Source: Sulfobacillus thermosulfidooxidans DSM 9293
Lineage (GTDB): Bacteria; Bacillota; Sulfobacillia; Sulfobacillales; Sulfobacillaceae
Reading direction: 5' to 3'
Assembly: GCF_900176145.1 (NCBI RefSeq)
Contig: NZ_FWWY01000001.1
Location: 1 to 64,000, forward strand
Length of the DNA stretch: 64,000 bases
This document shows, one piece after another, positions 23,287 through 25,971 of this stretch; position 1 is the first letter of the stretch, and each line of letters begins with the position of its first letter. The position numbers were made by a program, and so were the translations under genes. The notes under the pieces were generated by a model. The model saw nothing but the letters and a program-made list of their open reading frames with translations, had not been told where the DNA came from and ran no database searches.

Positions 23287-24993
23287 TTATTCAAATCGGC
23301 GGGTAATGGGCATACGCCTGTCCCGTCCAAAAGCACGGGGAGTCACTTTTATCCCAACGGGTGCCTGTCGCCTTTTGTATTCGTTTTGGTTAACCAGTTT
23401 GATAGCCTGGGTAACAAACGCGGGATCCAATTGTTCGGCAACCAGTGCCTCCGCCGATAAATCATCTTCGATATACCCCTCAAGAATCCGATCTAATATA
23501 GCATATGGAGGTAATGTATCTTCATCTTTTTGATCCGGTCGCAATTCTGCACTCGGTGGCTTAATTAAAATGTTTGAGGGAATCCGTTCTTCTTTTTGAT
23601 TGACCCAACGCGCCAATTGGAACACTTGCGTCTTGAGAACATCTTTAAGAACCGCGAATCCCCCCGCCATATCCCCATATAACGTACTGTATCCCGTCGC
23701 CATTTCACTTTTATTGCCGGTTGTCAGCACTAACCACCCAAATTTATTCGACAACGCCATCAATAAGGTTCCACGAATGCGGGCTTGAAGATTTTCTTCG
23801 GTAATATCTCGGGAGAAACCCTGAAAGAGTGGCTGGAGCTGCTTCTCAAAAGCCGCCATGACTGGGCCAATAGCAATTTCCTTCGCATCAATGCCCAAGT
23901 TCCGTGCCAGCTCGCGGGCATCATCGAGGCTTTCTTGCGAAGTGATCTCCGAGGGCATCAGGACGCCATGAACCCGGTCAGGGCCCAACGCATCGACGGC
24001 AATCACTGCAGTCAGTGCTGAATCGATTCCTCCGGATAGTCCAATGACCACGTCATGAAATCGATTTTTTTCTACATAGTCTCTCACCCCAAGGACCAAA
24101 GCCCGGTACAATTCTTCTTCATCTCCTAAAAGAGGAGAAATCTTTGGGGTCCACGGGGTTTTAGGAGATTTTCCTAAGGGACTTATGGTAATGGATCCCA
24201 CGTTATCCTCCACGGGGCCAAGACGCCAGCGGGGATCAATAAACCGTCGGTGCAAACTGGGAATGGCCGTAAGCGACACGGTCACAGAGTCCTCTTGAAA
24301 GGCTAAAGCCCGTGCCAACACTTGACCATCAGGTCCATAAACTGCGCTCATACCATCAAAAATGAGTTCATCCTGGGCACCCACTAAGTTCGTCCACACT
24401 AAATACGCGGCAACATCATCGGCTCTGGTGCGCAACATATGTTCCCGCTCAGCTTGTTTCCCTCGTGAATAGGGTGAGGCACTAATATTAATTAATAAAT
24501 TGGCACCGTGTCGTGCCTGCTGTAAATAGGGACCATCCGGATACCAAATATCTTCACAAATTGAGACGCCAATCGACCATTCCCCCGCGGAAATGACTTG
24601 AGTTTCACGTCCCGGTGTAAAATAGCGTGCTTCATCAAAAACGCCATAATTGGGAAGTAACTGTTTATTGATCCGGGTCAAGAGATCGCCATTATATGCC
24701 ACAGCCGCGCTGTTAAAGAGTCCAAACTGCGCATAAGCATATCCAAAAATCACCATAATATTTTGGGACTGGGAAACAATCTCATCACAGGCTTGTTGCA
24801 ACGCATGCAAAAAATCGGGCCGAAATAATAAATCCTCGGGGGGATATCCGGCCAAAACCATTTCGGGAAACACAACAATATCAATATCGTCATGACGGGC
24901 TTGAGTCACAGCATGTAAAATTTTTTCCAAGTTGCCACTGACATCACCCACCGTACTATTCATTTGAACAAGCCGGATATTTAAGGGATTCAT
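23287..24993 (-). CDS. nadE: Glutamine-dependent NAD+ synthetase
   Basis: This 568-residue two-domain enzyme makes NAD from deamido-NAD, ATP and glutamine. The N-terminal nitrilase-like glutaminase domain (about 1-260) has VFPEMVLAGYPPEDL, then GVSICEDIWYPDGPY with the nucleophilic Cys. The C-terminal synthetase domain has the PP-loop LSGGIDSALTAVIAVDALG near residue 320, TGNKSEMATGYSTLYGDM, and PPSAELRPDQKDED. The start overlaps the upstream 115-residue gene in an ATGA arrangement, so it belongs to the same transcript as the E1-like pair. Confidence 0.96.
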   Translation of the reverse strand: MNPLNIRLVQMNSTVGDVSGNLEKILHAVTQARHDDIDIVVFPEMVLAGYPPEDLLFRPDFLHALQQACDEIVSQSQNIMVIFGYAYAQFGLFNSAAVAYNGDLLTRINKQLLPNYGVFDEARYFTPGRETQVISAGEWSIGVSICEDIWYPDGPYLQQARHGANLLINISASPYSRGKQAEREHMLRTRADDVAAYLVWTNLVGAQDELIFDGMSAVYGPDGQVLARALAFQEDSVTVSLTAIPSLHRRFIDPRWRLGPVEDNVGSITISPLGKSPKTPWTPKISPLLGDEEELYRALVLGVRDYVEKNRFHDVVIGLSGGIDSALTAVIAVDALGPDRVHGVLMPSEITSQESLDDARELARNLGIDAKEIAIGPVMAAFEKQLQPLFQGFSRDITEENLQARIRGTLLMALSNKFGWLVLTTGNKSEMATGYSTLYGDMAGGFAVLKDVLKTQVFQLARWVNQKEERIPSNILIKPPSAELRPDQKDEDTLPPYAILDRILEGYIEDDLSAEALVAEQLDPAFVTQAIKLVNQNEYKRRQAPVGIKVTPRAFGRDRRMPITRRFE

Positions 24994-25337
24994 CGTCGCA
25001 CCTCCGTGTGCACAAGCATTAACAGCAACTGGCTCAAGGCAAGACCCATCGTCGTCACAATTTGAGCGGAATCCCCTGACTCATCAAGGGGAATATAAAA
25101 GTCATCCATCTCGCCGGTTTCAAGATGGATTCCAATACGGTCGGCAGACGGCTCCCCACTGTGGTAGGATACGCCCACACCAGCTGCTTGCAAATAACGC
25201 CCAGCAAGATGCATCCATTGAGGCGGCCCTTGAATCGTAACACGGTGATTCAAGAGTCGAAGCTGTCCATCATATCCGATATCATCGACTAATATTTGCC
25301 GTGAGTAACGCTCCAATAAGGTATTATCCAACTCCAT
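24990..25337 (-). CDS. Pseudo-E1 half: ThiF/MoeB-type N-terminal segment without nucleotide-binding loop
   Basis: This 115-residue protein begins with LERYSRQILVDDIGYDGQ and LLNHRV, which aligns well with the first 35 residues of MoeB/ThiF proteins, the arm whose Arg reaches into the partner subunit. Where those proteins continue with a GxGxxG loop, it has GPPQWMHLAGRYLQAAGVG: the glycine loop is lost but a later AGVG remains. The rest is unlike known E1s. The gene overlaps both its neighbours, the catalytic ThiF-like gene (14 bp) and nadE (4 bp). I infer that it pairs with the catalytic half; a decayed paralogue is the alternative. Confidence 0.65.
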   Translation of the reverse strand: MELDNTLLERYSRQILVDDIGYDGQLRLLNHRVTIQGPPQWMHLAGRYLQAAGVGVSYHSGEPSADRIGIHLETGEMDDFYIPLDESGDSAQIVTTMGLALSQLLLMLVHTEVRR

Positions 25338-25971
25338 GACCGCACCTCACTGCGCTCAAACCAATTTTTCTCACACGCGTTGCATGTCCATCAATCAAAA
25401 ACAGACCGTTAGGCCATTTTTGCGGATCATTTTGATGATGGTAATATTGATGGAATAGGAGCATCGCCTGACCCGCAACCGCTAGCGTTACGGTTCCCAA
25501 CACGCCAGCTTCAAAACATCGTGGACCTTGTTGTAAGGAACCAAAGAGACAGTATAAACACGTAAACTCGGGAGCTAAAAAGGCTGTCATCCCTTCTAAA
25601 CGCAATGCCGAGGAAAAAATCCACGGTCGGCCCGACACAAATGACCAGTTTTGGATGGCCTGCCGAGCCATCCAGTTATCCGAACCATCAAATACAATGT
25701 CCATACCATTCAAAAGAACGTGGGCGTTCTCCTCGGTTAAAGCTTCCGGGACGCTATGAATCCGGTCAGATCCATAATCACCAATCACTTCGGCTTTGTA
25801 TTTACCCACGTCTCCAAGCGTAAACCACGGCTGCCGGGGCAAATTCGATAACTCGATACGGTCGGGATCAATGACCCGGATTTCGGAGACGGCTGATTCA
25901 GCCAATAACTGAATGACAAGAGGTGAGCCAACGGCTCCACATCCCACCACTGCAACTCGCACATACCTCAT
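25324..25971 (-). CDS. ThiF/MoeB/HesA-family adenylyltransferase lacking the N-terminal arm
   Basis: E1-like enzymes adenylate the C-terminal Gly of a ubiquitin-like sulfur carrier. This 215-residue protein begins directly at the Rossmann fold (VAVVGCGAVGS, Gly 10, 12, 15). It keeps the active residues seen in MoeB: Asp37, Asn43-Leu-Pro-Arg46, Lys59, Asp98 in GSDN, a CxxC at 138-141 and Cys152 in RCFEAGVLG. The second zinc CxxC is reduced to RCGHG. It lacks the RYxRQ arm of about 30 residues, which is instead encoded by the overlapping next gene. No sulfur-carrier gene is nearby, so the pathway is unknown. Confidence 0.8.
   Translation of the reverse strand: MRYVRVAVVGCGAVGSPLVIQLLAESAVSEIRVIDPDRIELSNLPRQPWFTLGDVGKYKAEVIGDYGSDRIHSVPEALTEENAHVLLNGMDIVFDGSDNWMARQAIQNWSFVSGRPWIFSSALRLEGMTAFLAPEFTCLYCLFGSLQQGPRCFEAGVLGTVTLAVAGQAMLLFHQYYHHQNDPQKWPNGLFLIDGHATRVRKIGLSAVRCGHGVG

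Follow-up and report, generated by a model that had tools for sequence, protein, structure and literature searches.

An E1-type enzyme in which an active half is paired with an inactive one is treated as a eukaryotic feature. The ancestors of E1 in bacteria are reported to be homodimeric, and MoeB and ThiF each form a homodimer that has two active sites (PMC12355090). In both enzymes an arginine of the N-terminal arm (MoeB Arg14, ThiF Arg11) reaches the ATP site of the neighbouring protomer, where it is reported to be non-essential (PMC13139853). MoeB can also be functionally replaced: mycobacterial MoeZR sulfurates MoaD and, together with mycobacterial MoaD, complements E. coli moeB (PMC3227635).

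Here, we focus on a locus of Sulfobacillus thermosulfidooxidans DSM 9293 in which these elements are divided between two small genes. It lies in a 64,000-nucleotide stretch of DNA, referred to below as the window (contig NZ_FWWY01000001.1, positions 1 to 64,000). We propose that the encoded proteins of 215 and 115 amino acids, termed the pair, are probably a single heterodimeric enzyme, a split form of MoeB (molybdopterin-synthase adenylyltransferase).

Organization of the locus

The genes on the minus strand are ordered tyrS, thiF-like (215 aa), arm gene (115 aa), nadE and yebC (table 1). Both open reading frames called by the initial annotation were recovered at their positions, and all three genes from thiF-like to nadE overlap as it had described, the arm gene and nadE by 4 nt. 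The longer overlap between the thiF-like and arm genes, which points to probable translational coupling of the two, recurs in all family-f1 relatives compared; locus L021 instead has a 14-nt gap. Most relatives carry a gene of about 245 aa between tyrS and thiF (L072-L089, e.g. L075:4210-4989) that is absent from the window. The possibility that a carrier is encoded between tyrS and thiF was rejected, as the open reading frame there resembles by eye a TPR-repeat protein rather than a carrier.

Table 1. Features of the split E1 locus in the window (positions count from the first nucleotide of the window).
Feature	Position	Strand	Evidence or remarks
Catalytic half (215 aa), lacking the N-terminal arm; predicted to act as catalytic subunit in a split MoeB	25324..25971	-	PF00899, hhalign, AF2
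Nucleotide loop G10-x-G12-x-x-G15 of the 215-aa protein	25927..25944	-	Invariant in 24 aligned sequences
Cys152 of the 215-aa protein, position of ThiF Cys184 / MoeB Cys187	25516..25518	-	Invariant; alignment to ThiF
C-terminal C210-x-H212 of the 215-aa protein; with CxxC 138-141 likely a Cys3-His zinc site	25336..25344	-	C138, C141, C210 and H212 invariant
Pseudo-E1 half, 115 aa: RYSRQ arm and shrunken Rossmann remnant; predicted non-catalytic partner	24990..25337	-	Profile matches, hhalign, AF2
R10-Y-S-R13-Q14 arm motif of the 115-aa protein	25296..25310	-	No variation at R13 or Q14 among 24 aligned sequences
14-nt overlap, end of thiF-like gene / start of arm gene	25324..25337	-	8-26 nt in relatives
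nadE, glutamine-dependent NAD+ synthetase; adjacent in the operon, not counted as part of the enzyme	23287..24993	-	NCBIfam PRK13981, E 2e-218

The catalytic half

The 215-aa protein belongs to the ThiF family (PF00899, E 8.9e-39), yet enters the Pfam profile only at position 20. Aligned by hhalign to a profile of 19 full-length MoeB/MoeZ sequences, it covers MoeB residues 30-247 (E 6.5e-40), so the missing part is almost exactly the N-terminal arm. Its adenylation domain has the ThiF fold, with GxGxxG and the Asp, Asn, Arg, Lys, Asp set found in MoeB. The initial annotation had noted that the protein keeps the E1 nucleotide loop and Asp37, Asn43, Arg46, Lys59, Asp98 and Cys152 and begins at the Rossmann fold; all of these residues are invariant among 24 aligned sequences. 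The AF2 model of the chain alone has a pLDDT of 89.6, and its best PDB matches are ThiF (1zud/1zfn) and MoeB (1jw9), with TM scores of 0.77-0.83. The protein falls below the curated MoeB/ThiF equivalog cut-offs (64 bits against 376 for TIGR02355, 80 against 266 for PRK05690). Its gene is neither in nor linked to the thiS-thiG operon, and the separate ThiF of the genome sits between thiG and thiO.

The pattern of conserved residues suggests that C138, C141, C210 and H212 likely form a Cys3-His zinc site in place of the usual Cys4, with metal bound there. The cysteines of MoeB and ThiF equivalent to Cys152 are reported to form no thioester with the adenylated substrate (PMC13139853), and we therefore claim none for Cys152 despite its invariance.

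The arm half

Profile and PDB searches match the 115-aa protein to the N-terminal 54-56 residues of MoeB, UbaA and Uba4 (NCBIfam E 1.4e-8; PDB Uba4 E 1.2e-6). With the same set of 19 MoeB/MoeZ sequences, it aligns by hhalign to MoeB residues 1-56 (E 2.7e-17). This stretch comprises RYSRQ and the strand-helix with which the Rossmann fold opens; GPPQWM stands where MoeB has GxGxxG, and the middle is deleted. In the AF2 model the remainder is short and rich in strands and ends in a helix (pLDDT 84; overall order helix-strand-helix-three strands-helix). Taken in isolation the fold has weak, non-significant structural matches (Foldseek; MoeB 1jw9 at E 0.08, prob 0.82, TM 0.37).

Arg13, Gln14, Leu16, Gly24, Gln25, Tyr48 and Gly53 are invariant in the 24 aligned arm proteins, and Arg13 occupies the position of MoeB Arg14, judging by the alignment to MoeB/MoeZ and by PMC13139853. 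None of the 24 has GxGxxG, in agreement with the initial reading of a RYSRQ arm on a protein whose own nucleotide loop is destroyed. The most distant arm protein (G008) stands outside this alignment and has EGTERL where the others have GQ. The arm gene has pairwise dN/dS values of 0.07-0.28 and evolves somewhat faster than its thiF-like partner in most comparisons. Matches, invariant residues and dN/dS together put the two halves well beyond a chance resemblance.

Distribution in Sulfobacillales

The arm gene occurs in 8/8 genomes of the genus. In a profile search of 42 Sulfobacillales genomes, genuine orthologues of the catalytic half stood apart at E 1e-66 or better, against about 1e-38 for the remaining E1s. 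Intact, adjacent catalytic and short arm genes are found together in 26 genomes of three families, all of which have the arm and the catalytic fold split over two genes; in the remaining 16 both are missing or disrupted. None of the 42 genomes has a single intact half. This distribution supports the conclusion that the two E1 genes are kept and lost as one unit. Two genomes, each carrying MoeZ, show the loss in place between the upstream gene and nadE: one has a broken thiF and a truncated arm (G022, L167:3221-3893), the other has thiF fragments and an arm remnant with an in-frame stop (G036, L168:977-1422). In an arm-profile search of 299 genomes of the phylum, no split was recognized outside the order among the matches listed and inspected; almost all of those listed lie in longer open frames and resemble full-length MoeB-type proteins.

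Carriers and the probable MoeB role

Three E1-family genes of the window genome exceed the cut-off: the split gene, a ThiF on the second replicon, probably PRTRC-type judging by its sequence and neighbourhood, and the ThiF of the thi operon, enclosed in thiE-thiS-thiG-thiF-thiO. The PF02597 search, which would miss carriers with no match to that family, returned two carriers, namely ThiS in the thi operon and a MoaD (ending PPVSGG) that adjoins MoaE. ThiF is dedicated to its operon, and MoaD is thus left without an evident E1 besides the pair. The same two carriers occur in S. thermotolerans (G007) and in a near relative (G006), where the pair and a thi-operon ThiF are the only E1s. Three MAGs that are 93-95% complete (G021, G037, G039) encode MoaD and MoaE and have exactly one E1, the pair.

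Across the order, 37/37 genomes with MoaE carry either the pair or MoeZ, a fused MoeB-rhodanese. Two near-complete genomes that have no MoaE (G018, G019) contain no pair, MoeZ or other E1, nor any ThiS/MoaD carrier. The pair alone is present in 24 genomes, MoeZ alone in 14 and both in 2; most of these genomes are MAGs, in which a MoeB may have been missed. The mutual exclusion is strong when kinship is ignored (Fisher p = 2.4e-7). On the MoaE tree the pair changes five times and MoeZ four times, giving three well-supported independent contrasts, 3/3 of them in the expected opposite directions and too few for significance. The pair is not adjacent to moa genes. Read most simply, the data would make the pair the Sulfobacillales MoeB, which MoeZ has displaced on several occasions. 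MoaD is a well-supported candidate for the substrate, as judged from the co-occurrence of MoaD and MoaE with no other E1; the initial annotation had left the substrate open.

Some MoeZ genomes have a third carrier of the ThiS/MoaD type directly upstream of MoeZ (L130:3270-4778 in G034, G009:C249:8607-9614 and G010:C87:2034-3070), an arrangement that suggests a CysO-like role too. In G015 a split E1 is accompanied by a carrier that adjoins two further E1-family genes (L132, G015:C1:460155-462487).

Proposed mechanism and alternatives

The case for a split MoeB rests on the complementary coverage of MoeB by the two halves, together with their gene overlap, the purifying selection on them, their co-retention and co-loss and the lack of another candidate E1 for MoaD. 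The 215-aa subunit would bind MgATP and adenylate MoaD at its C-terminal Gly-Gly. The 115-aa subunit, its nucleotide site lost, would pack on the catalytic subunit in place of a second MoeB protomer, with the RYSRQ arm presumably laid over the ATP site of the catalytic chain. A sulfurtransferase, the presumed sulfur donor, could then turn MoaD-AMP into the thiocarboxylate used by MoaD-MoaE. A two-site homodimer would in this way have become a one-site heterodimer: because the catalytic chain is armless and its partner siteless, the arm acts in trans if it acts at all, and each heterodimer would have one active site. Given that the arm arginine is reported to be non-essential in MoeB and ThiF, the 115-aa partner may matter more for stability or for MoaD docking than for its arginine.

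The initial annotation allowed that relatives with one uninterrupted ThiF gene would make the split a frameshift or recent decay, and suggested looking for adjacent halves in other genomes. Two short overlapping reading frames of one family would fit such an origin, or an assembly error. The gene order, however, is catalytic-then-arm and not the reverse, and Rossmann strand 1 is present in both proteins, which together exclude a simple frameshift; the same adjacent split in 26 genomes of three families leaves an artefact with practically no probability. The idea that the 215-aa protein is a homodimer that needs no partner, the 115-aa protein being a dispensable or regulatory relic, draws on the non-essential arginine finger of MoeB and ThiF, on TcdA, which lacks one (PMC13139853), and on the faster evolution of the arm gene. 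It is hard to reconcile with the absence of any genome in the order that has one intact half only, with a dN/dS well below 1 and with invariant arm residues, and we judge it improbable.

Somewhat more credible, though still unlikely, is a heterodimeric E1 that acts on an acceptor other than MoaD (a different ubiquitin-like carrier, a tRNA base or a peptide), with MoaD served by ThiF or an unrecognized enzyme. The position of the pair outside the moa cluster, the carriers that PF02597 would miss and a C-terminal zinc site (Cys-x-His) unlike that of MoeB are all compatible with this. Against it, three genomes have no other E1 and MoaD as their sole carrier, ThiF is locked in the thi operon, and the presence of the pair tracks MoaE, with replacement by MoeZ. 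Functional coupling to NAD synthesis, in which the pair would modify or regulate NadE or use NAD, was part of the initial annotation and is suggested by the overlap with nadE in the genus and by their neighbourhood in most relatives. Each nevertheless occurs without the other. Sulfobacillus harzensis keeps thiF and arm intact beside a nadE reduced to residues 481-567 (L086:5614-6294; same locus in G030/L174) and has a separate NH3-type NadE elsewhere (a 278-aa open frame), and nadE is retained with no intact pair in G009, G014, G018, G019, G022 and G036. The link is positional and a functional one very improbable; of the initial proposal, the catalytic half and arm-bearing pseudo-half stand at the level of sequence and the coupling to NAD synthetase falls.

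A second split E1 in Myxococcales

A genome-wide pattern scan found one locus outside Sulfobacillales, in a Myxococcaceae MAG (L090; 4971-6960 and 7101-7796). It encodes an armless E1, TusA and a 353-aa protein, followed by APS kinase. Residues 1-56 of the 353-aa protein resemble the arm and a degenerate Rossmann start, and its C-terminus is a JAB/JAMM domain (Pfam 1.3e-19). Matches to this query occur in 131/145 genomes of the same order, many through the JAMM part only; in dozens of these genomes the first 200 or so residues form a separate gene (frames mostly 205-245 aa) that adjoins the JAMM match. The set of armless E1, TusA, pseudo-E1 and JAMM recurs in about a dozen of 24 loci fetched, and three inspected loci have a carrier of about 90 aa ending AMAGG between TusA and the pseudo-E1. 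R10, Y11 and R13 do not vary among 11 aligned pseudo-E1s, which have lost GxGxxG.

Like the Sulfobacillales pair, the myxobacterial cassette (L090, L183-L186, L203, L204) combines an armless catalytic E1 with a separate RYSRQ pseudo-E1 that has lost GxGxxG. Unlike it, the cassette has a pseudo-E1 of about 205 aa that keeps a zinc ribbon and is sometimes fused to JAMM (as one protein in L090 and L186), and its operon includes its own carrier, TusA and JAMM. The cassette might conjugate this carrier to proteins. A quick tree joins the two splits with a support of 41 and does not reject the alternatives. Obligate heterodimeric E1s in which a dead subunit donates the arm may have evolved in bacteria, perhaps on more than one occasion (in Sulfobacillales and Myxococcales), a tentative proposal to which we give slightly less than an even chance.

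Bacterial E1s with a dead subunit, if real, would be a step from MoeB-like homodimers parallel to that which led to the SUMO and NEDD8 E1s. With only 115 aa, the pseudo-E1 would offer a naturally very small arm donor with which the role of an inactive E1 half could be tested. A split MoeB would also fill an apparent gap in molybdenum-cofactor synthesis across a whole order in which many members lack a full-length MoeB. It draws attention, too, to a ubiquitin-like cassette in myxobacteria, of which no description was found in the searchable literature.

Comparison with known systems

MoeB (E. coli, 1jw9) resembles the pair in its catalytic residues, fold, CxxC, arm sequence and presumed substrate, MoaD. 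It is, however, one protein that forms a symmetric homodimer with two sites (PMC12355090), whereas in the pair the arm and the fold lie in different proteins and the partner is siteless. MoeZ/MoeZR of Mycobacterium, a proposed functional equivalent that replaces the pair in several Sulfobacillales lineages, differs as a single chain with its own arm and a rhodanese domain.

The searchable literature, outside which subscription papers lie, contains no description of a bacterial heterodimeric E1 or two-chain MoeB and no paper that combines Sulfobacillus and MoeB; the initial annotation likewise knew of no bacterial counterpart. The likeness is with eukaryotes. SAE1-UBA2 and NAE1-UBA3 place an active adenylation domain on one chain and an inactive one on the other, with the arm given by the inactive one, and the sequences of the pair present the same division into active and inactive domains. 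These are the eukaryotic E1s of SUMO and NEDD8; the pair is bacterial, belongs to a sulfur-transfer context and has a partner of only 115 aa. Neither the 215-aa nor the 115-aa protein contains catalytic-cysteine half domains or a UFD (the ubiquitin-fold domain for E2 transfer), and the pair and these enzymes are presumed to be of separate origin. Yeast Tcd1-Tcd2 (ct6A dehydratase) is another E1-like heterodimer, in which inactive Tcd1 stabilizes Tcd2 and supplies an arginine finger; unlike the pair it is eukaryotic, has a full-length partner with a spoiled loop and acts on tRNA (PMC13139853). The sequence families, and the principle as seen in these three eukaryotic enzymes, were already known; what appears to be new is the two-chain arrangement in bacteria.
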